A DNA stretch of 64,000 bases from Lacinutrix neustonica (GTDB taxonomy: Bacteria > Bacteroidota > Bacteroidia > Flavobacteriales > Flavobacteriaceae), in NCBI RefSeq assembly GCF_026625145.1, contig NZ_CP113088.1:2087501-2151500 (forward strand), read 5' to 3'. A model generated the notes under the pieces. It saw only the letters and a program-made list of their open reading frames with translations, was not told the origin of the DNA and ran no database searches. Positions 1-64,000 of the stretch are shown here, piece after piece (the first letter of the stretch is position 1; each line of letters begins with the position of its first letter). The position numbers and the translations under genes are program-made.

Positions 1-1516
1 GATAGGCTGGGGTTCCTATTTTCGTGTTTCTAGACACTAGATTATTATTAAACGAAGCGCCTATATACTTCTTTTTTGAGTCCTGCTCTATCGTTAAACC
101 AACGGTTTCAAATAAGGTTTTATAATCGGGCATCTCACTTTTATAAATATAAGTATTGAAAAAACCGTCTCCAAAATCAGTTCCCGCATAGGCATTTAAA
201 ACGGCATTAAGGTCTTTTATAGTATAAGGGATTTCTGTTTTACCATAAGTAGCCCAAACCTGTTTCATATACGTATCTAAATCCAAACCTTTTTGGCGTA
301 ATGATAGATCCAATGCTAAGCCTAGAACACTCCCATAAGAATAATAAGAAATAAAAGTATTGTCCCTGTTCACCGGATCTATAGATGATGCTGCATCTAC
401 AAAGGGTGCCTGAAAGCTCATCTCTATAGGGTTGAAGAATTGTCGCGCCGGAGAGTTCCATACATAGTTGAACGTCCCATTTAATCCGGAAACATAAGCT
501 TCTGGCGTAATAAGTCCCGCTCTACACAAAATAAGATTGGTATAATAACTGGTAAAACCTTCGGCAAACCAAAGGGCCCCACTCATATTGGCGTCTTCAA
601 AATCGAAAGGCTCTAATGCTGCTGGACGGATGCGTTCTACGTTCCACGCGTGAAAAAATTCATGAGACACCGTACCAATATTACCTTCCATTCCGCCTTC
701 ACTCAAACCTTCTTTATCTGTTAAAATGGTAGAGTTTCTATGCTCCATGCCGTCGCCACTCACATGGTTCAAATAACAGGCTAGAAAAGTATACTTACCA
801 TAATCGAAGGTTGGTAATTCGCCATAGACCGCTTCCTCCGCTAATACTATTTTCTTAACCTTCTCGAAATAAGTATCCAACATTTTTTCACTGCCGTCAT
901 GGTGTAATACAAATTCTATTTCTTGTCCCTTGACCTCAAAACTGCGTGTACTATGGTTACTCAATTCTGTAGGGCTATCCATAAAATACTGCAAGTTTGG
1001 AGCCCTGTAAGTCGTAGCCTCTTTTAAAGGTAATTGAGTCGCTATTTTCCAATTTAGATCAGCTCTTGGCATAAAGGTAATTTCCATCGGTTTGTCACTT
1101 AAAGAAGGTGCAAACATAAAAGTTGCTGGAATATTCAAGTGCGCATGGGTTTCGTCTATTTGGCTATAGGTGCCATCGGCTCTATCAGCAAACAAGGTAT
1201 AAGAGACTGTTACTGCACCATCATGGTTTTGAATTTCCCACGCTTGTGGATTTATTCGATTGATGTGTAATGGTTCTCCTTTACTATTATAAGCCTTAAC
1301 ATGATAGACATTTTTAGCAAAATCGTGAATTGCATAACGTCCTGGCGATGTTCTGCTCATTTGTACTACAAGTGAGGTATCCTTTAAATGGGTATACGCT
1401 ATTTCAATAGTTGCTTCGTGGTGTCCTGCGTTTTCAAAACTTATCGTGTAGCTCGTGTTTTGTGCGAAAACAAAAGTGCTGCAAATGGTAAGAAGTATAG
1501 AAAATAGTGATTTCAT
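1..1516 (-). CDS. M61 family metallopeptidase (glycyl-aminopeptidase-like), C-terminus beyond window
   Basis: Exported zinc aminopeptidase of family M61. The start at 1516 gives a clear signal peptide (MKSLFSILLTICSTFVFAQ). An N-terminal beta-sandwich leads to the gluzincin core with HEFFHAWN at about residue 285 (zinc His, Glu, His) and a downstream FAEGFTSYY that supplies the third ligand. The frame stays open for about 505 codons to the window edge; the usual C-terminal PDZ domain lies outside. No frame break is seen here. Family assignment is firm; substrate preference for N-terminal Gly/Ala is family knowledge only. Confidence 0.93.
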   Translation of the reverse strand, partial: MKSLFSILLTICSTFVFAQNTSYTISFENAGHHEATIEIAYTHLKDTSLVVQMSRTSPGRYAIHDFAKNVYHVKAYNSKGEPLHINRINPQAWEIQNHDGAVTVSYTLFADRADGTYSQIDETHAHLNIPATFMFAPSLSDKPMEITFMPRADLNWKIATQLPLKEATTYRAPNLQYFMDSPTELSNHSTRSFEVKGQEIEFVLHHDGSEKMLDTYFEKVKKIVLAEEAVYGELPTFDYGKYTFLACYLNHVSGDGMEHRNSTILTDKEGLSEGGMEGNIGTVSHEFFHAWNVERIRPAALEPFDFEDANMSGALWFAEGFTSYYTNLILCRAGLITPEAYVSGLNGTFNYVWNSPARQFFNPIEMSFQAPFVDAASSIDPVNRDNTFISYYSYGSVLGLALDLSLRQKGLDLDTYMKQVWATYGKTEIPYTIKDLNAVLNAYAGTDFGDGFFNTYIYKSEMPDYKTLFETVGLTIEQDSKKKYIGASFNNNLVSRNTKIGTPAY

Positions 1517-1557
1517 TTTTTATAGTTAAAAATTAAATTGAGGAATTGGGATATGCG

Positions 1558-1998
1558 TTATACTTTTTTAATCACATTAGTAACAATACCCCAAATTAAA
1601 AAGTTATTATCCTCTGTTATATGAATAATAGGATACTCGGGTTTTCTGGTTGCAACCAAACTTCATCTTTAGAAACCCGCAAACGTTTTACCGTAAACTC
1701 GCCATCTAAAAAACAAACGGCTATTTTGTTGTTTTCTCGGCGCTAAACTTCTATCTATAACCAATAAATCGTTATCATCTAATCCAGCTCCAATCATAGA
1801 TTGTCCACTTACCTTAGCATAAAACGTGGTTTCTTTATTCTTTACTAAAGTTTCATCTAAGGAGAGAGGTTCTCCTTTAAAATCGTCTGCCGGCGAAGGA
1901 AACCCCGCTGAAATTCCAGTATCAAAAAAATGTCCTGCTGCATTAGCACTGGGCTCAGGGGTGAAGAAAGTTAAACTTTCACATTGGAGAGTTATCAT
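1558..1998 (-). CDS. UmuD/LexA-like S24 autoprotease (two frame breaks)
   Basis: Peptidase S24 protein of about 146 residues when reconstructed, the size of UmuD. A cleavage-site-like SAGFPSPADDF is followed by the catalytic Ser in VSGQSMIGAGL and the catalytic Lys in FTVKRL. I chose the start MITLQCESL; ATGs at 2034 and 2064 are also possible. The frame breaks at 1736-1740 and 1636-1640, both CTCGG on the + strand; restoring CCNGA on the gene strand gives SLAPENNKIAVCF and QPENPEYPIIHI, as the family expects. The two breaks cancel in length. No umuC partner follows. The role in SOS mutagenesis is inferred from the family. Confidence 0.85.
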
Positions 1999-2219
1999 AT
2001 AAACGTGTGTTTTTCCAGTTTTAAAGATAGACATAACTGTTCTAATTACATCATGACTTGTCATTAAGGAAAATTTTATTAGTTACACATATTTATAATT
2101 ACACGCTGCAGCCCTCAGTACAGTTCCTAATCAAGTGTTATCTCAAAATAAAAACACATGCGACTACAATTGCCAGCTATTTTCTAAGTTGCAAATAGCA
2201 CAGCATTCCGCATCAAATT

Positions 2220-2770
2220 TTAAATCTCTAGGATTATAACTTCCCAAAGCTGATCATTTGAGGTATACTTGCTTAGGACCTTAAACCCAATAGACCTATG
2301 AGCCTCGGAAGAGCGTGTGTTTTTACTATCGACTTCTGTTATAATCGCATGAAATTCATTACTAAGTTCCTTTGCCATATATAAGTATAAGCCTCTAAAA
2401 ACTCCCATTCTCCTGTAGCTTTTATCGATGCAAATTTGTCCCATAGCAATATAATTTAGCCTCCTGTTTTGACCACTCAAGACATGATCTATTTCATTGA
2501 ACATGGGTATCAACAAAGGCATGTCGTTTTTGAACGCCTGAAGCATAGAAAGAGCATACCCTATTACTTTGCCTTCATGTTTTGCAATGCAATGGCCACA
2601 AGCGTCATTCATTTTTTTCAATAGGTCAAAATCATGCTGCAACGTGACGAAGCCTTCTTTTTGCTTTACCTCATCAGAAATTAAATCGTGTAAATTTTCT
2701 TTCTGAAGTTTTAAAATAGCCTCGAGTTCGTCAATGCTTTTTGCTCTATGATAGGTGATTCCGAAGCCAT
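2220..2770 (-). CDS. GNAT family N-acetyltransferase (frame break near the start)
   Basis: Acetyl-CoA-dependent acetyltransferase of about 183 residues. The acetyl-CoA loop region reads QICIDKSYRRMGVFRGLY (R-x-x-G-V/I type), followed by the usual helix and ITEVDSKNTRSSEAHRSIGFK. The frame upstream of residue 40 has no start codon. Adding one base at the CCGA at 2761-2764 joins ATG at 2770 to the frame and gives MASGITYHRAKSIDELEAI, a typical GNAT N-terminus. The gene lies 30 nt downstream of the HTH gene and may be the last gene of that operon. Substrate unknown. Confidence 0.82.
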
Positions 2771-2799
2771 AACTTTTCGTTTTATATAAAAATATAAAA

Positions 2800-3006
2800 T
2801 TAATCTGCTATATACTCTAAAATATCACTGGGCTGGCATTCCAATGCTTTGCAAATCGCTTCTAAAGTAGAGAATCGAATCGCCTTGGCCTTCCCTGTTT
2901 TTAAAATAGACAGGTTCGCGGTGGTAATACCAACAAGATCTGCCAACTCATTACTTTTCATCTTACGCTTGGCTAGCATAACATCTAGGTTTACAATTAT
3001 AGACAT
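2800..3006 (-). CDS. YozG-like HTH (XRE/Cro-C1) regulator, 68 aa
   Basis: Small single-domain helix-turn-helix protein. The recognition region is NELADLVGITTANLSILKTG, followed by FSTLEAICKALECQPSDILEY, the hallmark of the YozG-type Cro/C1 family. It starts 2 nt after the stop of a DUF2975 gene, so it is translated in the same operon as three DUF2975 membrane proteins. YozG-DUF2975 pairing is common in bacteria. It may regulate its own operon; the operon promoter at 4465-4492 is AT-rich with small dyads, but no operator can be proven. Confidence 0.9.
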   Translation of the reverse strand: MSIIVNLDVMLAKRKMKSNELADLVGITTANLSILKTGKAKAIRFSTLEAICKALECQPSDILEYIAD

Positions 3007-3008
3007 GC

Positions 3009-3461
3009 TTAGATGGTTAATTCGTTTTCTTGTTGTATTTGAAACCCTTGTTTAAAAACGGAAGCAAGGAATAAGGAAAAAATAACAAGCATTATGTGCA
3101 ATGGTAGTCCTGGTGCGACCTCCATAAACTCAAAATCGTAAATCAAAATCGATACTAAAACATTAAAAGCAGGTATTACAAGGTTTAATACTGCAAAAAT
3201 ATTGAGATACTTTACGGCTTTTGAGGTGAATATTTTTTCCTTTCTAAATGTGTTTAGTAGTAAGCCTAGAGGAATTAAAAATCCTAAATACCCCAACATT
3301 GGGAGTATATTTAAAAGTACAGGTATATCATCTTTAAATAATAAATCTGGTATAAATTGAAAGAATATAAACACAACAAATAGCAAGCACAAAAGAACTA
3401 CATAAAAAAGCAGTGTTGACAGTGAGCGTTTTCCAAACATTTTTAATTTCATATGTTTCAT
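3009..3461 (-). CDS. DUF2975 membrane protein (copy 3)
   Basis: Membrane protein of 150 residues with four predicted transmembrane helices and the DUF2975 signature (TFRKEKIFTSKAVKYLNIFA) in the middle. The N-terminus MKHMKLKMFGKRSLSTLLF and C-terminus ending ENELTI are nearly the same as in the adjacent copy at 3465, so these are recent tandem duplicates. Intergenic gaps of 2-3 nt indicate translational coupling. Function unknown; the partner HTH regulator suggests a membrane-sensing or regulator-sequestering module. Confidence 0.85.
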   Translation of the reverse strand: MKHMKLKMFGKRSLSTLLFYVVLLCLLFVVFIFFQFIPDLLFKDDIPVLLNILPMLGYLGFLIPLGLLLNTFRKEKIFTSKAVKYLNIFAVLNLVIPAFNVLVSILIYDFEFMEVAPGLPLHIMLVIFSLFLASVFKQGFQIQQENELTI

Positions 3462-3464
3462 AAG

Positions 3465-3920
3465 TTATATCGTTAGTTCGTTATCTTTTTGGATTTGAAA
3501 CCCTTGTTTAAAAATTGCCGCTATAAATAACCCAAACACCCCTAAAACTATCAACGGAAATATTGGCACAATATCTTGGGCCCAATATCCTTCAAATTTT
3601 AATGACAAAAGAATGACAAGCACCATTAAAAAATTAATACCGGCGAATAAATACAAATAAATAACAGTTCTTTTAGTGAAAATCTTTTCCGTTTTAAATG
3701 CTCTAAATATTAAAATTAGCATATAAAAGAAAACTATCTTAGGTATAAAAAAGAAGGAAATTTTAGATATGGAATTTAAAGCCGTAAATGCTTTTAAAAG
3801 ATCTGAAAAAAATGTACCGACAAAAAAAATCACTGACAATAGAAAACAGACAATAGAAAGCCAAAAAAACAATGCTGATACAGAGTGTTTTCCAAACATT
3901 TTTAATTTTATATGTTTCAT
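3465..3920 (-). CDS. DUF2975 membrane protein (copy 2)
   Basis: 151-residue, four-helix membrane protein, paralogue of both neighbours. The DUF2975 core reads IFRAFKTEKIFTKRTVIYLY. N-terminus (MKHIKLKMFGKHSVSALFF) and C-terminus (FKQGFQIQKDNELTI) are close to the 3009 copy. It is separated by 3 nt from the genes on both sides. Function unknown. Confidence 0.85.
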   Translation of the reverse strand: MKHIKLKMFGKHSVSALFFWLSIVCFLLSVIFFVGTFFSDLLKAFTALNSISKISFFFIPKIVFFYMLILIFRAFKTEKIFTKRTVIYLYLFAGINFLMVLVILLSLKFEGYWAQDIVPIFPLIVLGVFGLFIAAIFKQGFQIQKDNELTI

Positions 3921-3923
3921 AAA

Positions 3924-4442
3924 TTATATCGTTAGTTCGTTTTCTTGCTTTGCTGTTTTTGCTATTTTAAAGGTTTCACTTAGTACCAAGAAGAACAACC
4001 CCAAACAAACCATAAATAGATAGGGACTCAAACCAAAATTGAGTGTCAAACTATTTTTAAAAAAAAGATAAAAACTAAAGGAGATAAGAGCTGCCGAAAT
4101 TCCTGAAACCAAAAGTAATTGTCCGATTCTCTTATAACTACCAATAACATAATCATCAAAGGGTTTCCGGTTTTGAAAATACCGTAGTGTCTTTCTAAAC
4201 AAATAAAAGCTGTAAATGCAAACAAATAACACGGAAACTACCAATAACGCTACGATTTTTAAATACCAAGGCGTAATAATAAGGCCTTGATTAAGCACAT
4301 TAAATGTTTTCAGTACCCCCTCGTTAAAAAACATATAGACCGAAAAAAATAGGGCTATAGGAATTAAGGGTAAGCAGGTGACAATCCAAATAAAGTCTAC
4401 CAGTGCTTTTAAAATAATGAGTTTTTTCATATTTAAATGCAT
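3924..4442 (-). CDS. DUF2975 membrane protein (copy 1, first gene of operon)
   Basis: 172-residue membrane protein with four hydrophobic segments and the DUF2975-like motif FRKTLRYFQNRKPFDDYVIG. It is more diverged than the other two copies but ends in the same ENELTI tail. It is the first gene behind the promoter at 4465-4492. In QNRKPF the Arg codon is CGG within CCGGA; if the CCAGA-to-CCGGA change seen elsewhere happened here, the residue was Gln. Function unknown. Confidence 0.82.
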   Translation of the reverse strand: MHLNMKKLIILKALVDFIWIVTCLPLIPIALFFSVYMFFNEGVLKTFNVLNQGLIITPWYLKIVALLVVSVLFVCIYSFYLFRKTLRYFQNRKPFDDYVIGSYKRIGQLLLVSGISAALISFSFYLFFKNSLTLNFGLSPYLFMVCLGLFFLVLSETFKIAKTAKQENELTI

Positions 4443-4464
4443 TAAAATTATTGTTTTACGATAA

Positions 4465-4492
4465 CAAATATATAATAATTATTGATAAACAA
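4465..4492 (-). promoter_or_regulatory. Promoter of the DUF2975-HTH operon
   Basis: On the minus strand TATATTTG (4472-4465) fits the Bacteroidota -7 element TAnnTTTG, with TTG 17 nt upstream at 4492-4490. It lies about 23 nt before the ATG at 4442. The region also holds short dyads (TTATCAATAA type) that could bind the HTH regulator; that is inference. Confidence 0.55.
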
Positions 4493-4564
4493 TAACTATT
4501 TATTAAAAAAGAATAAAATTAATCTTTTAGACCTCCCAGGTTTTCAAATCCTGTGGGGTCTTTG

Positions 4565-4572
4565 TACCTTTG
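4565..4572 (+). promoter_or_regulatory. Possible -7 element before bioF
   Basis: TACCTTTG matches TAnnTTTG. It ends only 4 nt before the GTG start of bioF, which would give a leaderless or nearly leaderless message, and no good -33 element is seen. Weak call. Confidence 0.3.
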
Positions 4573-4576
4573 GTTT

Positions 4577-5697
4577 GTGATACCTAAAAAACTTCAAAAC
4601 AAGCTAAATCAACGTGAAGCAGAAAACGCCATTCGCAAATTAGGCGTACAAAATAAACTGGTGGATTTTGCCTCTAACGATTATTTAGGTTTTTCTAAGA
4701 ATGATGCTATTTTTAGAGCTTCTCACAACTATTTATTAGTCAATAATATTGTAGAGAATGGTGCCACCGGTTCACGTTTACTTTCGGAAATCATCAATTA
4801 TATAATACCGTAGAAACTCAATTATGTGAATTTCACGATAGTGAAGCCGCATTAATTTTTAACTCCGGTTATGACGCCAACTTAGGGTTTTTCTCCAGTG
4901 TACCTCAACGCGGTGATATTATTTTTTACGATGAATTCATTCATGCCTCTATTCGTGACGGAATAAAAATGAGCGATGCCAAAGCCTACAAGTTTAAGCA
5001 CAACAATTTAGACGATCTAAACAAGCAGCTGCTTCGACAAGCTCAGCATGACAGCGAGATCTATATTGTTACAGAATCTGTGTTTTCAATGGATGGGGAC
5101 ACCCCTAATTTAAAAGGGTTTGCTCAATTTTCAAAAGAAAATGCTTGTCATTTAATCATTGACGAAGCGCATGCTATTGGTGTTTGTGGGAAACAGGGCG
5201 TAGGCTTGGCCCAAAGCATAGAAACCTTTGCAAGAATTATCACTTTTGGGAAAGCCGTTGGTTGCCATGGCGCCGCTATTTTAGGAAGCCAAGACTTAAA
5301 GCAATACTTAGTTAATTTTTCTCGCCCTTTTATTTACACCACTGGTCTGTCACCACACAGTCTAGCAACGATATCCTGTGCTTATAAAGCGCTTCAAAAT
5401 ACGCCTCAAATTGACAAACTCCATCAAAACATTTCCTTTTTTAAATCTGAAATAAAAAGACTTCAGTTAAAAAACAAATTCATAGAAAGCAACTCGACCA
5501 TTCAATGTTGCATAATACCTAATAATGAAACGGTAAAAACTATTGCCAAGCATTATCAAAATAAAGGATTTGATGTCAAGGCCATTTTATCACCAACGGT
5601 TGCAAAAGGACAAGAACGTTTGCGTTTTTGCTTACATGCTTATAATACTAAAGACGAAATCTCTCAAGTTTTAAACTTACTCACTACCTTTGTTTAA
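4577..5697 (+). CDS. bioF: 8-amino-7-oxononanoate synthase (frame break)
   Basis: PLP enzyme that condenses pimeloyl-ACP/CoA with alanine, the first step of biotin ring assembly. Reconstructed length is 373 residues. Motifs: VDFASNDYLGFSK, GATGSRLLSGNHQLYNTVE, FNSGYDANLGFF, IIDEAHAIGVCG and the PLP lysine in TFGKAVGCHGAA. I prefer the GTG start at 4577 (VIPKKLQNKL aligns with the family start); an in-frame ATG lies at 4553. One base is missing at TCGG 4784-4787; restoring TCNGG gives SGNHQ. First gene of the bioF-DUF2007-bioD-bioA operon. Confidence 0.93.
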
Positions 5698-6762: not shown

Positions 6763-8044
6763 ATGGAAATCAAAAATATGAGTATAAAACAACGCGATAA
6801 AAAACACATCCGGCATCCCTTGACGCAACACAAGTTACATCCGGAAACTATGGCGATTACAAAAGCTATAGACTGTATTTTATTTGATGAGGATGGGAAT
6901 GAATATATTGATGGTATTGCCTCATGGTACTCTAACATGTACGGGCATTGCAACCCGTTTATCACGAACCGCGTGTATAAACAGATGCAAACCTTAGACC
7001 ATGTGGTTTTTGCTGGTTTTACACACGAACCCGCAGTAAAACTCAGTGAAGAACTCATTAAAATATTACCGAGAAAATCAAGAGAAAATTTTCTTTGGAG
7101 ATAACGGGTCTACCAGTGTAGAAATTGGTATTAAAATGGCTTTACAGTACCATTTCAATACCGGTGAAAAACGCAACACCCTAATTGCTTTTGAAGATGG
7201 TTTTCATGGGGATACCTTTGGGGCCATGAGTGTTTCAGGCCTATCTGTTTACAACGGCCCTTTTGAGGATTTCTTTCTTGACGTTAAACGGATTCCTACA
7301 CCAAATGGAAGCAATCATGCTGAGATTCTAGAGACTCTAAAAGCTATTGTGAAACAAAATAAAGTAGCCGGATTCATTTATGAGCCTTTAGTACAAGGTG
7401 CGGCCGCCATGAAAATGCATGATGCTGAAGGATTAAACACGATTTTAAAATTTTGTAAAGCCCATAATATCATTACCGTTGCCGATGAAGTCATGACTGG
7501 GTTTGGTAAAACTGGACGCTATTTTGCTTCAGATTTCATGGAAACCAAGCCGGATGTCATGTGCATGAGTAAAGCCCTAACTGCTGGTTTAATGCCCATG
7601 TCCATTACCTCTTGTACTCAAGCCATTTACGATGCTTTTTATAGTGACGATATAGGCAAGGGTTTATTTCACTGCCATACGTATTCAGCAAACCCCCTGG
7701 CTTGTACAGCTGCAATTGCAGGCTTAGAGCTATTGCAATCACATACCATCCAGCAAAACATAAACCATATAATAGAGAAACATAAGATCTTTGGAGCTTA
7801 TATTAAATCCCATCCCAAAGTAAAATCAATACGGCAAAAAGGTATTATTTTTGCGCTGGATTTAGATGTTGAAATGGAACGTTATGGCGATTTACGCGAC
7901 AAGCTCTTCCACTTTTTTATGGAAAACGGGGTCTTTTTAAGGCCTCTTGGTGGCACCATTTACATTCAAGCGCCTTATACTATTACAGATGCCCAACTCG
8001 ATAAAATCTATCAGGTTATTGAAGACGTTTTAGAAGTCGTCTAA
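6763..8044 (+). CDS. bioA: Adenosylmethionine-8-amino-7-oxononanoate aminotransferase (frame break)
   Basis: PLP aminotransferase making DAPA with SAM as amino donor; 426 residues when joined. Motifs: DGIASWYSNMYGHCNP, GDNGSTSVEIG, VADEVMTGFGKTG and PLP lysine in MSKALTAGL. The start may be 6763 or the ATG at 6778. The frame breaks at 7069-7073 (CCGAG); CCNGA gives ILPENQEKIFFGD. The near-invariant HIWHP motif reads HIRHP here, with codon CGG at 6811-6813 inside TCCGG; the expected TGG would restore TCTGG. Downstream it overlaps the convergent Coa1-like gene by 15 nt. Confidence 0.94.
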
Positions 8045-10439: not shown

Positions 10440-11834
10440 ATTTGATTTAGGTTTTCCAATTGCCATTATTTTTGCAATACTATTTGTCTTTGTATTTTTA
10501 ATTATTTTAATCAGACGGTATAAACGCTGTCCTTCAGATAGAATACTTGTCGTGTATGGTAAAGTTGGTGGCGGCCAATCCGCCAAATGTATCCATGGAG
10601 GTGCAGCCTTTATCGTGCCTGTATTTCAGGATTATCAATTTTTAGATTTAACACCAATATCTATTGAGGTCAATCTTGTCAATGCCTTATCGAAACAAAA
10701 CATTCGTGTAAATGTACCCTCTCGTTTTACTATTGGTGTTTCTACAGAGCCTGGTATTATGCAAAATGCTGCTGAAAGATTACTGGGGCTCAACCAAGGT
10801 AATATTCAGGAATTAGCACAAGAAATCATTTTTGGGCAATTGCGTTTGGTCGTAGCGTCTATGGATATTGAAGAAATTAATAATGACCGTGATAAGTTTT
10901 TAACTAATATTTCTCAAAGTGTAGAATCAGAGCTAAAGAAAGTGGGGCTGAAATTAATCAACGTAAACATAACAGATATTGTTGACGAGTCTCGGCTATA
11001 TTGAGGCTTTAGGAAAAGAAGCTGCGGCACATGCTATTAACGCCGCACGTAAATCTGTAGCTGAAAAAACCAGGAGATGGTTCTATTGGAGAAGCAAATG
11101 CGGTACAGGATGAAAGAACGCAAGTAGCAGCTGCCAATGCCCAAGCAGTAGAAGGTGAAAACACAGCGAAAATTGCTGTTGCAAATTCAGATTCTTTGCG
11201 TCGCCAACGGGAGGCTGAAGCAGAGCGTGTGGCTATCGCCTCAGAAAAAGTACAAGGAGCAAAAGCGTTACAAGAATCGTATGCTGCAGAGCAAGAAGCC
11301 GAAGTCGTAAGGGCTGAAAGAGAACGCTCATCTCAAATGGCCGATATTATTGTGCCTGCCGAAATTGACAAGCGCAAAGTGGAAATAGATGCTGAAGCCC
11401 AAGCGGAACAGATTAGAAGACGTGCAAAAGGTGAAGCCGATGCCATACTATTTAAAGCCCAAGCCGAAGCTCAAGGTCAATATGAGATTTTAACAAAGCA
11501 GGCTGCAGGTATGGAACAAATTGTTAAAGCTGCGGGAAATAATTCTAAGGATGCTGTTTTATTATTAATCGCAGACAAATTACGGGAACTAGTGAAAATG
11601 CAGTCTGACGCCATTAAAAATATTAAAATTGATAAAGTGACCGTTTGGGAAAATGGCGGCGGAAAAGATGGTAAATCATCAACCGCTAATTTTTTGTCCG
11701 GTATGTATAAATCGGTACCCCCTTTACAAGAAATGTTTAATATGGCAGGTATGGAACTGCCGGAATACTTAAAAGGGAAAGATCCAAAAGGTAATACTGA
11801 AGCAGAAGCTGTAGAAGAAATGCCTTTAAAATAA
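10411..11834 (+). CDS. Flotillin-like SPFH/band 7 protein (two frame breaks)
   Basis: Reconstructed length 473 residues. An N-terminal membrane helix (about 12-32) is followed by an SPFH domain (RILVVYGKVGGGQSAKCIHG) and a long Ala/Glu-rich coiled coil rich in AEAEAQ/EKVQGAKA repeats, then a short C-terminal tail. Two extra bases are present: CTCGG at 10991-10995 (restores DESGYIEALG) and CCAGGA at 11070-11075, where CCAGA restores AEKTRDGSIGEANA. The second case keeps CCAG intact and so helps identify the true motif. Role: membrane microdomain scaffold (family). Confidence 0.88.
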
Positions 11835-11921: not shown

Positions 11922-12886
11922 ATGAAACCCTTATACAAACTGCTATGCCTCGTAGCACTCTTAATTACCGCATGCCATGATGCACAACAAGACCCTAATA
12001 TTTACACACAATTTGAATCAAAATTCTATACTATAGATGGTTACAAAATAAATGTAGAAATGAAAGGTTCCGGTGACCCAATCTTCTTTTTGCCAGGTGG
12101 TCCGGGGAATTCTCATGATTATATGCAAGGTAATTTTGGGCAGTATTACAAAACGAATACGGTGGTGTTTTTCGATTGGTTGGGCCGGGGAAAGAGCGAT
12201 GATGCCAAGAGCGCGTCGGAATATTCTGTAGAGAATGATGTAGCAATGATAGAAAAACTAAGAGTGCTTCTAAAATTTGAAAAAATCACATTGGTTGGGC
12301 ATTCTTACGGAACGGTTCCTGCACAAGCTTATGCTATTAAATATCCTAATCAGCTAGATAAAATGGTGCTTATTAATGGTTTCCACAGTGGCGCCATGTG
12401 GCAAGCGAACTGTGATAGTTATAACCATTATGCAAAAACCCATTTTCCGAACGATGGACAAAAGTGGACTCACTTCGTGCCTTAGGTTACGTGTCAAGTG
12501 ATAAAGCCCTAGCAGCTGTTTACGGGAGTTTTCCAACAAAATATATTTATTATCACAACACAAAACTAAAACAAAACCTGCCAAAAACAGAACATCGTGG
12601 CTGGGTGAACGATGTTTATGTCGCTATCATTGGTAGAGATGGAGACTTCGACGTATCAGGAAGTATGATCCATCAGGATTACCGAAAGGAATTAAAAAAT
12701 ATTAAAGCAAAAACATTAATTGTTGCCGGGCGCTATGATGGCGTCTCCACTCCGGAATTTGCAATACAATACAAAATCTTTATGCCTAAAGCTCAATTTG
12801 AAATGTTTGAGAATAGCGGCCATAATCCTTACTTGGAAGAACCTGAGAAATTTTTTAAAATCTTCAACACCTTTTTGAATGAATAA
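11922..12886 (+). CDS. Alpha/beta hydrolase lipoprotein (proline iminopeptidase-like; frame break)
   Basis: Reconstructed length 321 residues. The start at 11922 gives a lipoprotein signal with lipobox (LVALLITAC). Motifs: oxyanion-hole GGPGNSHDYM, nucleophile elbow VGHSYGTVPAQ (Ser), acid in AGRYDGVSTPEF and His in ENSGHNPYLEEPEKF. HGGPG-type oxyanion motifs are typical of proline iminopeptidases. One base is missing at CCGA 12447-12450; CCNGA gives HFPERWTKVDSLRALG. Substrate unknown. Confidence 0.87.
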
Positions 12887-34647: not shown

Positions 34648-35134
34648 TTAGTCTAATGCTGGGATACGTAGTACTTGTCCTGGGTAAATCTTATCCGGAT
34701 GCTCTAACATGGGTTTGTTCGCTTCAAAAATAACTGGATATTTCATGGCATCACCATAGAACTTCTTAGCAATTTTCCCTAAAGTATCTCCACTAACAAC
34801 CGTGTGAAATTGTGCTTCAGGTTCTTTATGCTCCACCGTCATTTGGTCGTCTACCGTCGCAATACCTTCGCTATTTCCTACGACCAAGATAGCTTTTTCA
34901 CGAGTGGATTGATTTTGTGCCCGACCAGTAAATCGTTGCTTTATCATCGTCAATATGCACACTTAAACCTTCAACATGTAACTCTAAATCTCTTATTGTT
35001 TCTTCTAATTTTCTTGCCGCAGCGGCTTCTTTTTTTAATTCTGCCTCAGCAGCATCTTTCGCTTCTTCTTTATCTGTTTTTCCTATACCGAAAATCTTTG
35101 CGCCGGCATTTTTAATAAATGAAAATAATCCCAT
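34648..35134 (-). CDS. LysM/BON domain protein, YgaU (Kbp)-like (frame break)
   Basis: 161 residues when joined, close to E. coli YgaU/Kbp. N-terminal MGLFSFIKNAGAKIFG and a Glu/Ala-rich helix, a BON domain (DLELHVEGLSVHIDDDKATI...VVGNSEGIATVDDQ) and a C-terminal LysM (FHTVVSGDTLGKIAKKFYGDA, PGQVLRIP). One extra base at CCAGTA 34925-34930 on the + strand; removing it gives CCAGA and the residues ATISGRAQNQ. Kbp binds potassium; the same role here is inferred. Confidence 0.9.
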
Positions 35135-47020: not shown

Positions 47021-47777
47021 TTAAAAAATATTCAACAATTTAATATCATTTTCCGGGATCCAGCCCGTCTTTCCATCTGAAAGTTTGATTTTTTTCCAAT
47101 GACTAACGGTGTCTAAAACCTGAACTTTTGTGCCTTCATGAAGTATAAAAGCTTCGTTACTTCTTATGTTTGGTTCACTTTTAACTTGAGATTCTTGAGC
47201 AAAAACAATGGCTGGATTACTTCTTTTTGCCACATCGTGCGTGTGAAAAGCAATGGCTAATGCTGAAAAAGCTAAAAATATAAACAATATACTTCCCGTA
47301 AAAAGCAACCGCTTTTTTTTAGTTTCAAAAGCAAAATAATAACCTAAATAAAATAAAATGAAGCCCATTACAAAAAGCACGGTGAGTTTTGCCCAACCAT
47401 CGAAAGAGAAAACATTGGTAATTCCATTAACCGTTTTAGATATGCTTGTTTCTCGGTATGGTATCTATGGCATCTATGGTCATGTTATTTGCAAATGCCA
47501 TGTTATTACTTATCTCTTGGTCATTTGGAGCCATAGCAGCAGCCTTTTCGTAATAATAAATACTTGGAGCAATATGGTTGAGCTTGTAATGCGTGTTGGC
47601 CATATTAAAATACAAGGCAGCAGAGTGGTTATCACCTTTTAAAATGGTTTCGTATTTATCTAGTGCCTCCACAAACTTACCTTCATTATACAGGGTGTTG
47701 GCTTGATCGAATAGCACCTCGTTTTGCGCAGAAAGTAGTCCGCAAAAGAACAGAAATATGTAAATTACTTTTTTCAT
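47021..47777 (-). CDS. batE: BatE-like TPR/SH3 protein (frame break)
   Basis: 251 residues when joined. Signal peptide, two or three TPR units (ANTLYNEGKFVEALDKYETIL, ALYFNMANTHYKLNHIAPSI), a two-helix membrane region (VLFVMGFILFYLGYYF) and a bacterial SH3 domain (NIRSNEAFILHEGTKVQVLD, DGKTGWIPENDI). One extra base at CTCGG 47452-47456; CCNGA gives DTIPETSISKTVNG. Last gene of the Bat operon. Confidence 0.87.
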
Positions 47778-52719: not shown

Positions 52720-54415
52720 TAGTTTTCTTTTGGTTTTACTTCAACTGAATTTAAAATACGCTCAATCATTTGATCTGCATAATCGTCATTATTTGGGGCG
52801 GTAATAATAACTTGTTGTAAAATATTTTGAGCGGTAAATTGTAGTAAAATGAATTGAGCAGCTCTTAATTTATCGCTCGTTTGGCTCGGAATACTCAAAG
52901 TTCCATGTGTTTTTAACCCTTTAGCCCCATTGGGGGTTTCAAAGGCATCACGTAACAGCACGATGTCTTTTACGCCTTTAGACTCTAAACCTTTGATAAC
53001 CACTTCTGATACTTCATTCAAGTCAATTTCTGAAGTCTTTCCCTGGTCTTGGCTTTCGCCTTGAGCTTGTTGTTGCAGCAACACCTGAGTGCTAACTGTG
53101 ACACTAAATAAATCTAAAACGGTTCCATAAGAAAACATGTTTATTTTTACTTCGGCTCATTTTGTGCTGTTGGCAGACTCATTCTCTTAAGCACTACTGG
53201 AGTACTAATCGTCACTGGAGGAGTACCATAGGCGCTCGTTACCCAATCTCCTTCAAGCAATTCTTTGCTTTCATGCCCAATAACGGTATCTTTTACGTAA
53301 TCAAATCCAAATTTGAATACAAAACCAGTAATTGTGGCAACTATTAAAAACACAGAGATAAGAACAGTAACCAGTATTTTTTTACGTTTCTTTTTACGCA
53401 CTTGGGCTTCCTTGTATTGGTTATCCAATAACTTCTCCTCTTCAGTTGGTTCAGGTAGTGCTTCTTTAACGTGATCGATTTCTAAATCAATTGTTTTTCT
53501 GTCAATTTCGGCTAAAGCGATATCCGGGGCAGACTTAGCAAATTTAACCAAATCGGCACGTTTTAATATGGTTTCAATATTTCGAATATCTTCTTTACTA
53601 ATTTCTATTTGATTGCCATCTTTTAGCAAATTTAACCGTAAAACAAGTTCGGAGGTGGTGCTTTCTAAGGCACGATCGTACACTTTTTCATCCAAATATT
53701 TTCTAATAATGAAGGTCAATTCAGAATAATATTCTTTCAAATTTTCATTCTGCAAGTAGCCGCTTTCGTCTAGTTTCTGTAAGGCTAATTTTGCACGATC
53801 ATACGGCGGAAGCAGAGCAATCTCTTCTTCTTCACTTAATGGTTTTGGTCTCCGGATAAACCACCACAACAAGAAGGCCGCTACGCCAAAACCTATTAAA
53901 ATAACAAGGAAATACTTCCACCAATTACCCGTGCTTTTTTCAACTTCTATAATGGGCTTAATATCATACAACCCTTGTTTAGTGGTATCCACTGCCATTT
54001 CTCGCACCTCAACTTTAAGAGAATCCGTGTAAAATTCTTTGGCTCCTATTAGTATTTTTTGCCTTGGAATGGTATAGGCTCCGGAATCGAATCTTGTTAA
54101 TCCGTATTTTTTAATCAGATTGAATCTAGCGTCTTTTTTTGTAGTGTCTATCTTATAAGACTCAATCATCTCTAAGGCACCAAACGTCTGCCCTTCAGGA
54201 AAAACAATCACTTCTGAAGTATCTGCTTCAACGGAAACTTTAAACGTGATTTGTTCTCCAATTTTAATGGAATCCACATCTATTGATGATTGGACTTGAC
54301 TGAAAGAGAGCAGAGAAAAAAGTGTAAAGACAAAAGACAGGCAAACGGAAGTGTTAACACGGAAGACCAAAGCCTTGTCTTTACTCTTATAATTTTTCAA
54401 TTCAATTTTTTTCAT
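52719..54415 (-). CDS. BatD-like membrane protein of the Bat operon (frame break)
   Basis: 565 residues when joined. Signal peptide, BatD/DUF4381-like Ig domain (VDSIKIGEQITFKVSVEADT), membrane helix (YFLVILIGFGVAAFLLWWFI), cytosolic helical region (YDRAKLALQKLDESGYLQ), second membrane helix (ILVTVLISVFLIVATITGFV) and a C-terminal domain (MFSYGTVLDLFSVTV). One base is missing at TCGG 53152-53155; CCNGA gives NEPEVKINMFSYG. Coupled to batA by TAATG. Confidence 0.85.
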
Positions 54416-54474: not shown

Positions 54475-55342
54475 TTATCCTCTTCTTTTAAAATAACCCA
54501 ATAGCTTTCTTACGTAACTTTCATCCACTCTACAATCGATGGTTCCTGCACCTGCTTTTGCAAAGCTATCTTTATAATATTCTACTTTCTCATGATAAAA
54601 TTTACTGTAGTTTAATCGTACTTTTTTTGATGATGTATTGACCAACAGGAACTCGCCGAGACTCTTCATCTTGCATTTGTACCAGTCCTAAATTTGGGAT
54701 CGCCTCTTCTTTTTTGTCATACACACGAATGCCTGTCACATCATGTTTTCCTGCGGCTATTTTTAATGTTTGCTTATAGTCGTCTGCAATAAAATCACTC
54801 AGTACAAATACAATGGCCTTTTTCTTCATCACACTGCGCATAAATTTCAATGCTTCAACAATATTTGTGCCCTTACTTCTTGGTTTGAATTCTATTAATT
54901 CACGAATAATTCTAAGCACGTGAGACCGTCCTTTCTTTGGCGGGATGAATAACTCGACGTCATCTGAAAACAAAATCAAGCCAATTTTATCATTATTTTG
55001 TGTGGCAGAAAAAGCAAGTGTCGCCGAAATTTCTGTAATAATTTCATTTTTAAATTGCTGCTCTGTACCAAACAGCTCTGAACCAGAAACATCCACCATT
55101 AATAACATGGTGAGCTCTCGCTCTTCTTCAAATACTTTAATATGTGGTTCGTTTGTGCGTGCTGTAACATTCCAATCGATATTTCGAACATCGTCCCCAA
55201 ATTGGTACTGGCGAACTTCAGAAAAAGTCATACCACGCCCTTTGAAAGTAGAATGGTATTCTCCTCCAAAAATATGATCAGACAAACGACGGGTCTTAAT
55301 CTCTATTTTTCGTACTTTTTTAAGTAATTCTTTAGTATCCAT
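54475..55342 (-). CDS. DUF58 protein (frame break)
   Basis: 288 residues when joined. N-terminal KTRRLSDHIFGGEYHSTFKGRG and VRQYQFGDDVRNIDWNVTAR are the DUF58 signature, followed by a degenerate VWA fold (LLMVDVSGSELFG). One extra base at CCGAG 54656-54660; restoring TCNGG gives MQDEESGEFLLVNTSS. Works with the upstream MoxR ATPase (family knowledge). Confidence 0.9.
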
Positions 55343-55441: not shown

Positions 55442-56442
55442 CTATGGTACTTCAACCACATTTACAATCTTATTAATGATGTCTTCTGAAGTCACATTTT
55501 CGGCTTCAGCTTCATAAGTAATACCAATTCTATGACGTAAAACATCGTGAACTACAGCACGAACATCTTCAGGAATAACATAACCACGACGCTTAATAAA
55601 GGCGTAACATTTTGCTGCGGTAGCTAAGTTAATACTTCCACGAGGTGAGGCGCCAAAAGAGATTAATGGTTTTAAATCGGCAAGTTTATATTGCTCTGGG
55701 AAACGGGTTGCAAAAACAATATCGAGAATATACTTTTCTATTTTCTCATCCATATAAACCTCGCGAACGGCTTCTTGCGCTCTTAAAATTTGAGCAATAG
55801 ACACCACAGGGTTCACTTTATCCCAACTTCCCTTTAAATTAGCACGCATAATGAGCTGCTCCTCATCTTTCTTTGGGTAGTCTATCACTGTTTTTAACAT
55901 AAATCGATCTACTTGTGCCTCCGGTAAAGGATAGGTTCCTTCTTGTTCCACAGGATTTTGAGTGGCCATCACTAAAAAGGGCTTATCCAAAACAAAGGTT
56001 TCATCACCAATGGTAACTTGCTTTTCCTGCATGGCTTCCAACAAGGCAGACTGCACCTTGGCTGGCGCTCTGTTAATCTCATCGGCCAACACGAAATTGG
56101 CAAATATGGGTCCTTTTTTAATAGAGAAATCATTCTCTTTCATATTAAAAATTAAAGTTCCAACCACATCTGAAGGCAATAAATCGGAGTAAATTGAATT
56201 CGGCTAAAGCTTGCGTCTATGGCTTTCGACAAGGTATTAATCGCTAATGTTTTTGCTAAACCTGGTACGCCCTCTAGTAAAATATGTCCTTGGCCTAATA
56301 AGCCAATAAGCAACCGTTCAATCATATCTTTCTGACCAACGATTACCTTATTCATCTCGAATGTCAACAAATCGACAAAAGCACTTTCCTTTTCAATTTT
56401 CTCGTTAATTGATTTAATATCAATTGTATTGGTTTCTTCCAT
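55442..56442 (-). CDS. MoxR family AAA+ ATPase (frame break)
   Basis: 333 residues from ATG 56442 (MEETNTIDIKSINEKIE). Walker A region LEGVPGLAKTLAINTL, Walker B NFVLADEINRAPAKVQSALLE, sensor ATQNPVEQEGTYPLPEAQ. One base is missing at TCGG 56185-56188; CCNGA gives IQFTPDLLPSDVVGTL, the MoxR consensus. Head of the Bat operon; a chaperone for VWA-protein assembly in this family. Confidence 0.94.
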
Positions 56443-56590: not shown

Positions 56591-57401
56591 TTATTCAAAT
56601 GTAATTGTACCAAGGTCTGTTGATGCTCCAATAACGACCTCCACATTCTCAAATACTTGAGCTTCAAATCCCGAAGCAGTATCTCGGAGTCGCCGTAACG
56701 GTATAGGCTCCCGAATCAAGTCCTACTAAAACAAATTGTCCCGTTTCATCAGCATAAGTCGAAATCGTTTCAACGCCATTAGTTGCTTCAATTAAAACTT
56801 GTAAATCCAGCGGTGTTACCATTCCTGTAATATAACCTGATTGCGCTTCAACGCTTGCTCTAATTACTGGTTTCAAATTAATATTTTCAGAATTTGAAGC
56901 CATAACAATAGACGCGTCTACATTAAAGTCAAGTAAGAACGTGTAATTAATGTTTGGTTCTAAATTTTGATTTACTTTGATTTTTAATCCTGATTGTTGT
57001 GCACTAGGCGTATTTAGAGGAAAGGTCTCACCATCAATCACCACTGTGTTATCATTGCCCAAAACCAAACGAATTTGATTTAAGTATCCTGATGGCAATT
57101 CAAAATCATCCAACAAGAGTACATCAATACCTCCTGTAAGTTCAAGAAGATCGTATATTCCAGTGTTTATAGCTTCCACACTAACCCAACCTGAATCCCC
57201 TTCGCTATCATCATTCAATTTTATCATGACATCTTGAACATCTACAAATACGTTATCAAAATCTCCCGGCATATCCATTAGTCTAACCGATATTTTCGAA
57301 GTTCCCTCTACAGGGTTGGTATCATCAGATTTGTTACAGCTCAAGGCGAATACCAATGATAATGATAAAATTACATACTTTAAAAATTTCATTTTGTTCA
57401 T
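56591..57401 (-). CDS. DUF4382 lipoprotein (frame break)
   Basis: 269 residues when joined. Lipobox at residue 22 (LSLVFALSC), then a DUF4382 domain (SKISVRLMDMPGDFDNVFVD, SVEAINTGIYDLLELTGG) and a C-terminal carboxypeptidase-regulatory-like domain (ADETGQFVLVGLDSGAYTVT). One extra base at CTCGG 56683-56687; CCNGA gives TATPDTASGFEAQV and the stop moves to 56591. Surface or periplasmic; function unknown. Confidence 0.87.
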
Positions 57402-58578: not shown

Positions 58579-58583
58579 AGCAT

Positions 58584-59336: not shown

Positions 59337-59373
59337 AGATCAAGCCGTAATAAAAGCCCAAAAGGAGATTAAA

Positions 59374-60627: not shown

Positions 60628-61217
60628 TTATTTTCCGCCTTTTAATATGTCCTGCCAATCTTTGAGTTCTTCCCATTTGCCTTGAGTTGCTAATTTTGCT
60701 TGTTCCGGCCATGTTCCTGGCCTATGAATCTCGTATCGCTTACCGCCGCTACGTAACACTTCCTGACATTTATCTACTGAGCAAGCGGCTAGTGCCTCCC
60801 AGGTTTGAACATCGTGTTTATGAAACAACGCTTTAATTTTTGGCCCAATACCTTCAACAACTGTTAAATCGTCCGGGGCTATTTTTTTTCCAAAAGCGGC
60901 TTTCGCGGCAGCTGCGTTAAAATCTAGTGTGGCATTTTCTCGAGAGCTCGTGGATTCGGCCGTTTTACCAGCAGACATCATACTTGATCTTGCCCCGAAT
61001 TTCCTGCCCCGGAAGAAATACCATTGCCTACCACTTTAGTATTGCCTAACCGCTCTTTACAACCCGCTAATTCTGTCTCTAATATTGAGATTCTATTTTT
61101 ATAAACATCTACTGCATTAGATCGATTGTTTCCATCTCCGGAAAGTTTTCCTAATAAGTAACCCAATAAAGCACATACAAGCCCGACGAGTATGGGAATA
61201 AATAAACACATATCCAT
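60628..61217 (-). CDS. Membrane-anchored helix-hairpin-helix protein (frame break)
   Basis: 196 residues when joined. N-terminal helix MDMCLFIPILVGLVCALLGY with Gly-rich motif, a coiled coil (NRISILETELAGCKERLG), a linker, and a C-terminal helix-hairpin-helix domain (DDLTVVEGIGPKIKALFHKH, VQTWEALAACSVDKCQEVL). One base is missing at CCGA 60995-60998; TCNGG gives GNSGARSSMMSAGK. It follows the OmpA protein gene by 14 nt. Function unknown. Confidence 0.82.
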
Positions 61218-61231
61218 ATTTTAATTTTTTG

Positions 61232-62164
61232 TTAGTTAATAGTTACGACTACTCTTCTATTTTTAGACCGTCCTTCTTCGGTTGCATTGTCTGCAATGGG
61301 TTGATCGGGTCCTTTAGAAGTCGTTTTTATTTTAGTTTCTAAAATGTTGTTTTCCACAAAGTATTCTTTGGCGAAGTTGGCTCTGCTTAAGGCCAGTTTG
61401 ACATTACTATCCCAATCTCCAATATCATCGGTATGACCAATAATTTCAATTACGGCATTATCGTTAGCCTTATCAATATACCGAGACATTTTAGCTACTA
61501 TTTCTTTCTGCTCAGGAGACAGTGTAATGGCAGCATTCCCAATATCAAAATACATGACCAACGAATTTGCTTGGATGTCTTGCCGTAGCGCTATTAAAGC
61601 AAGTTCTACGCCAGGATCTCCTTCTATCGTAGTACTTATATTATAGTGTAGCGGTCCATAATACATTCCGTTTTCATCTCGGAATCATATCATTATTTTG
61701 TATCCCATATGTATTTAGTTTTTTTGAGGGAATCCCTTGAGAAACCATATAGTTTTTCACGGCATTAGCTCGGCTAAACCCAAGTTTGGAAATGCTGTTG
61801 TGTTCTCTTCGCCAATGGAGTAATAACCAGTAATATCAAGTCCCTTCTTTGAATTATCGTTTATAAATCGTGCTAATTTAGAGACCTCCTCGACCAATCC
61901 TTCCCCTAAAGGTGTGACAATTGAAAAGTCTGATGTTCTAAAATTAAAATTATCCTTTGCTTTAAATGCTATTCCGCTTTTAGAATCAATAATAGAAAGC
62001 CTGTTTTTTGAAGTATTTTCAACCTCCGGCACTCCTACAACTATCGTCTTAGCTTCCGCTTTTTGAGCATCCCAACAGGATTTACAACATAAAAAATAGT
62101 ACAGAATGATACCAAGAATAATCGTTAAAAAAACACCGAGAAGATAGCCGGTTTTTTTATTCAT
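61232..62164 (-). CDS. Membrane-anchored protein with two OmpA-like domains (two frame breaks)
   Basis: 310 residues when joined; an insertion and a deletion cancel. N-terminal helix (YLLGVFLTIILGIILYYFLC) and a Cys cluster (CCKSC), a first OmpA-like domain (GLVEEVSKLARFINDNSKKG, NLGLARANAVKNYM) and a second (TLSPEQKEIVAKMSRYIDKA, IEIIGHTDDIGDWDSN, GRSKNRRVVVTIN). Breaks: CTCGG 61769-61773 (CCAGA restores the Arg of LARANAV) and CTCGG 61678-61682 (restores MIPDENGMYYG). Binds peptidoglycan by family. Confidence 0.87.
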
Positions 62165-62305: not shown

Positions 62306-62336
62306 AAAAAAGCCACATCTTTCGATGTGGCTTTTC
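62306..62336 (-). terminator. Terminator of aldehyde dehydrogenase gene
   Basis: AAAAGCCACATC / GATGTGGCTTTT with a TTTC loop; A-run on the + strand gives the T-run of the minus transcript. Confidence 0.88.
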
Positions 62337-62355
62337 CAATTTGAACTAATACGTC

Positions 62356-63908
62356 TTATAAATCAAATTTAATACCCTGTGCTAAAGGTAGTTCATCTGA
62401 ATAATTTACAGTGTTTGTTTGTCTTCTCATGTACACTTTCCATGCGTCTGATCCGGACTCACGTCCACCACCAGTTTCTTTTTCACCTCCAAAAGCACCT
62501 CCAATTTCGGCACCGAAGTTCCAATATTTACGTTTGCAATACCACAATCTGATCCTGAGAATGATAAGAATTTTTCAGCTTCTTTCATTTCGTTAGTCAT
62601 AATTGCAGACGATAATCCTTGTGCAACACCGTTTTGAGCTTCAATAGCATTTTCAACCTCTCCTGAATACTCCATTAAGTATAAAATTGGTGCAAAAGTT
62701 TCGTGTTGTACAATTTCAAAACTATTTTCTGCTTCAATAATTGCTGGTTTTACATAACATCCGGATTCGTAACCTTCACCTTCCAAAACACCACCTTCTA
62801 CTAATACGTTTCCGCCCTCAGCTTTTGCTTTTTCAATAGCCGCTAAATAGGTGTTCACAGAATCTTTATCTATTAATGGTCCAATATGATTTTTTTGATC
62901 TAAAGGGTTCCCAATAGTTAATTGTCCATAGGCTCCAACAATAGCATCTCTTACTTTATCGTAAACAGATTCATGAATTATTAATCGTCTTGTTGAAGTA
63001 CAACGTTGTCCACAGGTTCCAACAGCTCCAAACACAGCACCAGGTACTACTACTTTTAAATCTGCAGTTGGTGTAATAATAATGGCGTTGTTTCCTCCTA
63101 ATTCTAATAACGATTTTCCAAAACGTTCTGCAACAGTGGTTCCCACAATACGTCCCATTCTTGTAGAACCTGTAGCAGATATTAATGGAATTCTTTTGTC
63201 AGTAGTCATCATTTCACCTACTTTATAATCTCCATTAATAATACAAGAAATACCTTCTCGCAAATTATTTTCTTTTAATACGCCTGCAATAATATTTTGA
63301 CAAGCTACTGAGCAAAGGGGTACTTTTTCTGAAGCTTTCCAAACACAAACATCACCACAAACCCACGCTAAAGCCGTGTTCCATGCCCAAACTGCCACTG
63401 GAAAATTAAAGGCTGAAATAATACCTACAACACCAATAGAGTGCCATTGTTCTCTCATGACGTGCCCTGGACGCTCAGAAGGCATGGTTTGACCGTTTAA
63501 CTGGCGCGATAACCCTACCGCAAAATCACAGATATCAATCATTTCCTGAACTTCACCGTAACCTTCTTGTAAAGATTTACCCATTTCATAAGACACCAAT
63601 TTTCCTAATGGCTCTTTTAACTCTCTTAATTTATTACCAAACTGGCGAACAATCTCTCCTCTTTGAGGTGCTGGCATCGCTCTGAATGTTGGAAAAGCAG
63701 TGGTTGCTGCTTCCATCATTTTGTCGTAGTCTGCTTTTGTTGTGGTTGTTACTTTTGCTATTAAAGACCCATCTGTTGGTGAATAAGATGAAATCATCTC
63801 CCCACTTCCAAAGCTTTTAGATCCTGTAGAGGTTCCGTCATTTACATCTTTAATACCTAACTGTTGTAAGGCTTCTTTTATTCCGAAATCAGCTGAAACT
63901 GCTATCAT
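62356..63908 (-). CDS. ALDH7-type aldehyde dehydrogenase (frame break)
   Basis: 517 residues when joined. Motifs: [49 protein letters not shown] (general base Glu) and catalytic Cys in [11 protein letters not shown]-terminal [20 protein letters not shown]. Closest to ALDH7/alpha-aminoadipic semialdehyde dehydrogenases (lysine catabolism). One base is missing at CCGA 62513-62516; TCNGG gives [17 protein letters not shown]. Confidence 0.93.
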
Positions 63909-63944
63909 ATATAATCAATTTTTACGAATTATTTAATTTTGAGG

Positions 63945-63952
63945 CAAATATA
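63945..63952 (-). promoter_or_regulatory. -7 promoter element of the aldehyde dehydrogenase gene
   Basis: TATATTTG on the minus strand, 37 nt before the ATG at 63908. Confidence 0.5.
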
Positions 63953-64000
63953 CTAATAAATGTGCGTTTTAAAGGTTATAGCTTTCTTAAAAATAGTAAC

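Follow-up and report, generated by a model that had tools for sequence, protein, structure and literature searches.

The window analysed here is a stretch of 64,000 nucleotides of Lacinutrix neustonica (NZ_CP113088.1, positions 2,087,501 to 2,151,500; C1:2087501-2151500 on the single contig C1, of 3,905,328 bases, of a genome labelled G000), and its reading frames are interrupted at about 35 places. These frame breaks are almost certainly an artefact that arises from a modified base at the word CCAGA. Some four in five CCAGA words are missing from the consensus, which carries CCGGA, CCGAGA, CCGA, CCGTA or CCGTGA instead (hereafter error words). The errors concentrate on this one short motif on both strands, as in methylation-induced nanopore consensus errors. 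Judged from the assembly alone, the record most likely derives from native nanopore reads without short-read polishing. A sequence-only reading of the window had assigned 35 breaks to the motif CCNGA and had proposed that a base modification misled the sequencing, leaving the footprint of an active methyltransferase; the comparison with relatives supports this proposal as the most likely one.

As a reference we used G004, the closest relative used, which is nearly complete and 87% identical over a TonB-dependent receptor of 728 residues. Judged by this receptor, the closest named kin are Lacinutrix, Bizionia and Olleya, marine members of the Flavobacteriaceae. Alignment of 334,377 bases of the genome (334 kb) to G004, at 83.3% identity, allowed the 1,002 five-letter words represented by 100 or more sites to be ranked. 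CCAGA was the least preserved of them, with 61 of 683 G004 sites intact (8.9%, against 43.4% overall), and also the most indel-prone, with an indel at 134 sites (19.6% against 1.9%). The damage was alike on the two strands (plus: 26 unchanged, 254 substituted, 73 with an indel; minus: 35, 234 and 61) and was present in coding and rRNA genes alike. Words were also counted in 464 kb of sequence, comprising the window and 20 further stretches (21 in all, labelled L followed by a number), with the list of the sequence-only reading left unused. The CCAGA frequency was 0.22 of that in G004, the lowest of any five-letter word counted, while CCGGA and CCGAGA were increased 4.1-fold and 5.7-fold. CCAGA density per 100 kb ranged from 15 to 75 in all 21 stretches, from 114 to 275 in 33 loci of relatives, and was 194 in G004. 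The observed/expected ratio of CCAGA was 0.41, milder than the 0.22 found against G004 because the errors also alter the sub-words behind the expectation. In the window (positions 1-64000, both strands) CCAGA was scarce and CCGGA abundant, with 20 and 101 occurrences, and the 138 aligned G004 CCAGA sites comprised 11 unchanged, 44 with A>G, 18 with an indel and 65 otherwise altered.

At the 683 G004 sites the assembly read CCGGA (154), CCGAGA (63), CCAGA (61), CCTGA (58), CCGA (51), CCCGA (42), CCGTA (25) and other words. The commonest product, CCGGA, thus made up 22.5%, whereas the matching change from CCAGC to CCGGC affected 30 of 370 sites (8.1%). CCTGA (8.5%) and CCCGA (6.1%) are probably natural, their rates being equal or close to those of the corresponding changes in CCAGC, CCAGG and CCAGT. 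The CCGGA product had escaped the sequence-only reading because it leaves the frame whole and is invisible to a search for breaks. The motif could also be narrowed: the CCAGA part of CCNGA was confirmed, and CCNGA as such was rejected since CCTGA, CCCGA and CCGGA showed no depletion.

With CCAGA masked, no second corrupted motif, of the Type I gapped kind or other, came near the z of 29.5 that CCAGA reached by indel rate. The next words were CCTGA (26 of 388 sites, z 7.4), CTAGAG and TCCCGA (z 6.2, 59-71 sites) and gapped words with z up to 7.0 on 20-40 sites. The CCTGA residue can be read, short of proof, as G004 CCTGA sites where the strain truly has CCAGA. By preservation score, ACTA and AGCT were the lowest four-letter words (z about -14) and CTA-N7-TAG the lowest gapped word (z -5.8); we take these low scores as composition effects (ACTA stood at 0.89 of its G004 frequency).

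A strict catalogue of breaks, restricted to isolated gaps inside open frames with well-matched flanks and built without the earlier list, held 209 breaks in 280,330 coding bases. This density, about 0.75 per kb, extrapolates to roughly 2,500 breaks genome-wide. The gap lay at a G004 CCAGA in 112 of the 209 (background 1.1%), and an error word stood in the assembly within 6 bases of the break in 190 (background 4.3%). The 18 breaks that fitted neither test included about ten in A/T runs and several with an error word slightly further away, such as L123:13013 and position 28257 of the window, a place on the earlier list whose error word lay just beyond the 6-base limit. Tabulating breaks against CCAGA had been proposed as a check, and a motif-free k-mer count over the 334 kb ranked this word first, at 33.9-fold.

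The 35 places given by the sequence-only reading were examined for a gap within 9 bases whose length is not a multiple of three, and for CCAGA/TCTGG in G004 within 8 bases of that gap. A frame-breaking gap against G004 was found at 33 of them (18 insertions and 15 deletions), in agreement with the claim that the breaks sit at one motif, and CCAGA/TCTGG was near the gap at 19. Position 27074, described as a substitution, indeed aligned to G004 gap-free, with CCGTA as the assembled word. Within the window the strict catalogue contained 29 breaks, of which 26 were on the earlier list and three were new (28971, 27440 and 43424). The break sites are given below by window position and strand; each has a one-base gap against G004 unless otherwise stated, and "G004 CCAGA" denotes that word in G004 nearby.

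1636-1641, minus: break at error word; G004 CCAGA
1736-1741, minus: break, CCGAGA class; G004 CCAGA
2761-2765, plus: break, CCGA class
4784-4788, minus: break, CCGA class; G004 CCAGA
7069-7074, plus: break, CCGAGA class; G004 CCAGA
10991-10996, minus: break, CCGAGA class; G004 CCAGA
11070-11075, plus: break, CCAGGA; G004 CCAGA
12447-12451, plus: break, CCGA class
19403-19408, minus: break, CCGAGA class
20326-20330, plus: break, CCGA class
20868-20872, minus: break, CCGA class; G004 CCAGA
25753-25758, plus: break, CCGAGA class
27071-27076, plus: stop codon, CCGTA-class substitution, gap-free against G004; CCGTA recurs at 25 of the 683 sites
28257-28264, minus: break, CCGTGA class; G004 CCAGA
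28506-28511, minus: break, CCGAGA class
28968-28975, minus: new break (28971) at error word, isolated one-base gap
29249-29253, plus: break, CCGA class; G004 CCAGA
29890-29894, plus: break, CCGA class
30989-30994, minus: break, CCGA class
31018-31022, plus: break, CCGA class; G004 CCAGA
34925-34930, plus: break, CCAGTA; G004 CCAGA
35564-35569, plus: break, CCGAGA class
38135-38140, plus: break, CCGTGA class
41912-41916, plus: break, CCGA class; G004 CCAGA
42035-42040, minus: break at error word
44659-44664, minus: break, CCGAGA class; G004 CCAGA
47452-47457, minus: break, CCGAGA class; G004 CCAGA
49343-49348, minus: break, CCGAGA class; G004 CCAGA
53152-53156, minus: break, CCGA class, weakly aligned; 5-base insertion in poorly matching sequence
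54656-54661, plus: break, CCGAGA class; G004 CCAGA
56184-56188, minus: break, CCGA class; G004 CCAGA
56683-56688, minus: break, CCGAGA class; G004 CCAGA
60995-60999, plus: break claimed by the sequence-only reading; error word present, position unaligned to G004
61678-61683, minus: break, CCGAGA class; one-base gap 8 bases away
61769-61774, minus: break at error word
62513-62517, plus: break, CCGA class; G004 CCAGA

The breaks at 27440 and 43424 differ from the CCAGA class in lying within A/T runs; they are likely ordinary homopolymer errors. At 33882 a one-base gap with the assembled word CCAGGA falls in an open frame of G004; it is on neither the strict catalogue nor the earlier list.

Several observations indicate that the errors belong to the record and not to the organism. 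Both 16S genes read CACGGACCGGACTCC, with CCGGA, where the Rfam consensus is CCagACuCC. Of 395 genomes of the phylum, this one alone contained the 30-mer with the CCGGA form. The CCAGA form was absent here but present in 18 of the 39 other relatives searched; where it was not matched, the gene itself or the exact flanking sequence may be missing. For the second 16S copy (L003 near 2000) the match was cut by a run of N, a masked stretch. In coding sequence, A>G at the phases that change Arg to Gly or Trp to Arg was seen at 15 of 83 CCAGA sites, while six control words showed it at none of their 391 sites. At the silent phase A>G affected 134 of 498 CCAGA sites, compared with 1-12% for CCAGC, CCAGT and CCAGG at the same phase. 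The true sequence thus probably differs from the assembly at the 16S site and at the substitutions that change Arg or Trp. Taken together, some 2,500 extrapolated breaks and the damage to rRNA and to Arg and Trp codons point to a sequencing artefact rather than to mutations of the organism.

The product of the error depended on the base that follows the word. Of the 683 sites, 374 could be classed (the other 309 were unclassed) and 204 of these passed a flank filter; over these 204 the mutual information between product and +1 base was 0.231, against 0.174 for the largest of 500 shuffles. An A followed all 20 of the CCGTA and CCGTGA products and 20 of the 25 CCGA products. At positions -3, -2, -1, +2 and +3 no context effect exceeded the largest of 500 shuffles. 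Of the 193 CCAGA words that survive in the 464 kb, 113 are preceded by A (ACCAGA), compared with 273 of 776 in G004, and subtraction gives 100 that are followed by T. These contexts suggest that the basecaller copes with some neighbours, the -1 effect remaining within the shuffles at aligned sites.

The following account would explain these results. In the living cell CCAGA sites would be modified, most probably by methylation, and sequencing would misread the modified word so that the consensus prints CCGGA, CCGAGA, CCGA, CCGTA or CCGTGA. The modification would be 5-methylcytosine (m5C), set by the one cytosine-5 (C5) methyltransferase found in the genome, and this enzyme and an adjoining HNH-domain protein would form a restriction-modification pair on a 7.1-kb island absent from G004. 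We consider this account as a whole to be reasonably probable; once a modified-base artefact is granted, the C5 enzyme becomes a slightly firmer choice as its cause. The methyltransferases came from a profile search of the genome with five families (PF01555, PF07669, PF02384, PF00145 and PF02086), of which PF02086 gave no match. The relevant features are as follows.

C1:2245228-2246706: C5 methyltransferase, 493 residues, with an N-terminal helix-turn-helix and PF00145, the only PF00145 match of the genome (E 1.6e-85)
Directly after the C5 gene: HNH_2-domain protein, 374 residues, by domain match
C1:2239902-2247025 (L096:3902-11025): integrase island of about 7.1 kb, missing in G004 between well-matched flanks
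C1:850025-853066: Type IIG candidate, 1014 residues, in an unbroken frame; REase_MTase_IIG match of 1351 bits, with MmeI-like, Eco57I and TaqI_C domains
C1:3107579-3108133: N6_N4 methyltransferase, 228 residues, sole PF01555 match (E 9.4e-37)
Type I HsdM, 541 residues, from the PF07669 and PF02384 searches

The island is bounded by 14-bp repeats, and its guanine plus cytosine content is 30.3% against 37%. Its cargo comprises a phage-type integrase, the HNH/C5 pair, and a fragment of a REP_ORF2-G2P-like replication protein overlapping a second open frame. From its domain content and position, the C5 gene with its HNH-domain neighbour appears to be a restriction-modification pair. Among 395 genomes of the order, this one included, the C5 enzyme was found in three others at 63-78% identity. 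Of the 12 other members of the genus, two have different C5 enzymes, with 39-42% identity across 198-232 residues, and in none of the 12 does a relative extend over half the length of the enzyme. Plasmid relatives, 56-57% identical, were found in Vitreoscilla and Acinetobacter, and 95 to 97 of 147 residues of the motif VIII-IX region match them. In the two that were examined of the three best plasmid matches, the gene shares an operon with genes for an AAA ATPase and for a nuclease of the LlaJI family; here its neighbour is an HNH_2 protein and a helix-turn-helix is fused to the enzyme. One of these operons also holds a Vsr gene. Vsr acts on deaminated m5C. A footprint of deamination at CCAGA was not found, as CTAGA (21 of 683) and CCAAA (30 of 683) showed no excess over comparable C>T or G>A changes elsewhere; this absence may be uninformative, the island perhaps being young.

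The link of the C5 enzyme to CCAGA is circumstantial and its specificity is predicted; it draws on a case in Neisseria. CCAGA was reported as an m5C target in N. meningitidis by MspJI mapping, the mark being invisible to single-molecule real-time sequencing (PMC7973814), and an observed Neisseria motif CCAGR was explained as CCWGG plus CCAGA (PMC7046676). The enzyme, NEIS0771 (M.Nme15193ORF2725P; PMC7973814, PMC7046676), is a C5 enzyme of a Type IIS restriction-modification system that recognises the same motif. Its host is of a different phylum, and the likeness to the C5 enzyme here is one of enzyme class and presumed motif; the host of the Vitreoscilla plasmid relative belongs to the family Neisseriaceae. 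A broader proposal is put forward tentatively, at somewhat less than even weight: that a mobile system with a single C5 methyltransferase and an HNH nuclease marks the asymmetric word CCAGA in a member of the Bacteroidota, that its recognition region is common to LlaJI-type operons of Vitreoscilla and Acinetobacter, and that the system and its target word can be located from nothing more than a finished assembly, since its errors leave an imprint of the methylome.

The strongest competing explanation, which we consider less likely but a serious contender, keeps the artefact and replaces the mark by N6-methyladenine (m6A), set at CCAGA by the 1014-residue Type IIG enzyme. By its domain matches, nuclease, methyltransferase and specificity regions appear to be joined in this one protein. 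Its frame is unbroken, its match is strong, and the only relative in the genus is a partial one of 53% in G003. The error centres on an A, and Type IIG enzymes recognise short, asymmetric words that contain A. The sequence-only reading had argued along these lines, taking the presence of A on one strand only as a sign of a Type III or Type IIG system, and had suggested a search for such a gene, which did yield this candidate. Such an A is no sufficient pointer in its own right, given that m5C at CCAGA is documented in N. meningitidis and that a C5 gene with an HNH-domain neighbour is present here. The Type IIG part keeps some probability, and Type III found no support: the genome has no Mod gene of Type III size (PF01555, several hundred residues; Res was not searched for), its only PF01555 match being the 228-residue protein. 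The kind of error also argues against m6A. In Oxford Nanopore Technologies (ONT) data for Neisseria, 77 of 103 erroneous indels coincided with or adjoined a methylated base and nearly every methylation-linked mismatch was at m5C, whereas in the Salmonella data of the same report the methylation-linked mismatches were at m6A and no indel was linked to methylation (PMC12506013); the indel-rich errors found here resemble the former, and the documented CCAGA enzyme is an m5C one. Besides the Type IIG protein, the PF07669 and PF02384 searches gave HsdM and one weak match that reads as a PrmC-type protein. No second motif was damaged by indel rate despite the presence of HsdM, whose activity is putative; this hints that the basecaller tolerates m6A and mildly favours m5C.

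It is improbable that another enzyme is responsible, whether the 228-residue N6_N4 methyltransferase, a methyltransferase outside the five families searched, or a modification other than methylation. The 228-residue protein has a clear PF01555 match and the search was confined to these families; nothing ties this protein to CCAGA. A basecaller or polisher fault at CCAGA without any base modification is still less probable. The outcome follows the downstream base, as it would for any signal-level fault, but a general fault would strike many assemblies, and CCAGA is frequent in G004 and in the 33 loci of relatives, the 16S error being confined to one of 395 phylum genomes. A real loss of CCAGA from the organism, whether through targeted mutation or because restriction selects against the word, is hardly credible: restriction-modification systems can deplete their own sites, but some 2,500 isolated breaks would hardly be viable, and rRNA is affected, as are Arg and Trp codons where control words are spared.

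Several points weigh against a misread m5C at CCAGA set by the C5 enzyme. Perhaps one third of the CCGGA products are natural, judging by the CCAGC to CCGGC change. At the third phase, with CAG or CTG in frame, A>G was found at 3 of 85 sites and indels at 4, with 1 intact and 77 otherwise changed, a departure from strict phase-blindness; because so few are intact and so many otherwise changed, few of these sites may be CCAGA here, and the low damage can be read, though this is not proven, as G004 sites that mostly are not CCAGA in this strain. The chief substitution affects the central A and not a C, so that the shape of the error does not point cleanly to m5C, and the Neisseria errors were from C/G to T/A, unlike the A-centred ones here (PMC12506013). 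A single C5 enzyme is expected to mark one strand of CCAGA/TCTGG, which would leave half of the reads clean. Two genomes with related methyltransferases, G142 (78% identical) and G100 (64%), show no loss of CCAGA, which agrees with the artefact only on condition that their sequencing or polishing differed. Finally, the Type IIG gene is also present, nearly unique in the genus and equally strain-specific.

Errors of this kind are known for nanopore data; the setting, CCAGA in this genome, is most likely new. In a Klebsiella benchmark, m5C in CCAGG/CCTGG (Dcm) made about 70% of ONT consensus errors (PMC6591954), so that there too one five-letter motif lay behind most consensus errors of a native-DNA assembly. 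In contrast to the Dcm case, the motif here is the asymmetric CCAGA, the host is a marine flavobacterium and the cause is deduced from the assembly alone. In Listeria, ONT errors at GCTGG/CCAGC and GCAGC were attributed to a lineage-specific modification, each genome having 1,533-5,670 mismatches around a single pentanucleotide (PMC10687267); there mismatches, and not indels, were the source of low quality, whereas here 134 of 683 sites carry indels and genes break. Strain-specific ambiguous positions in nanopore data have been described for many species (PMC11610573, PMC11389150). In the open-licence literature we found no report of nanopore errors at CCAGA, which is not proof of absence. Queries with E. 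coli 23S sequence yielded no Dcm error signature in public assemblies, the lower-identity records being left unopened: with a 651-base query, identity reached 99% or more in 5,377 of 5,384 records, and with a 2,904-base query in 5,165 of 5,385.

The artefact has consequences for the use of this record. The roughly 35 breaks of the window, and by extrapolation those of the whole genome, would reflect sequencing instead of gene decay, and the completeness score of 84.46 (contamination 4.93) is probably low because of them. Many of the record's substitutions, of which each 16S gene bears one, are probably spurious, and work on gene loss, phylogeny or primers based on it could be misled. Conversely, the loss of a word relative to a close relative makes it possible to detect methylation motifs without reads, from public assemblies.

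Three further loci were noted by eye. At the Type I locus (C1:48891-54962; L093:3891-9962) the restriction gene and the specificity gene both seem to be split over two adjacent open frames, perhaps also through CCAGA errors. Nearby, at L093:13275-16890, an AAA-ATPase-like protein of 878 residues is followed by one of 328 residues, and their appearance and position resemble a McrBC-type pair. The region L051:7846-19755 (around C1:3.107 Mb), which holds the small PF01555 methyltransferase together with conjugative-looking genes, has the appearance of a mobile element.

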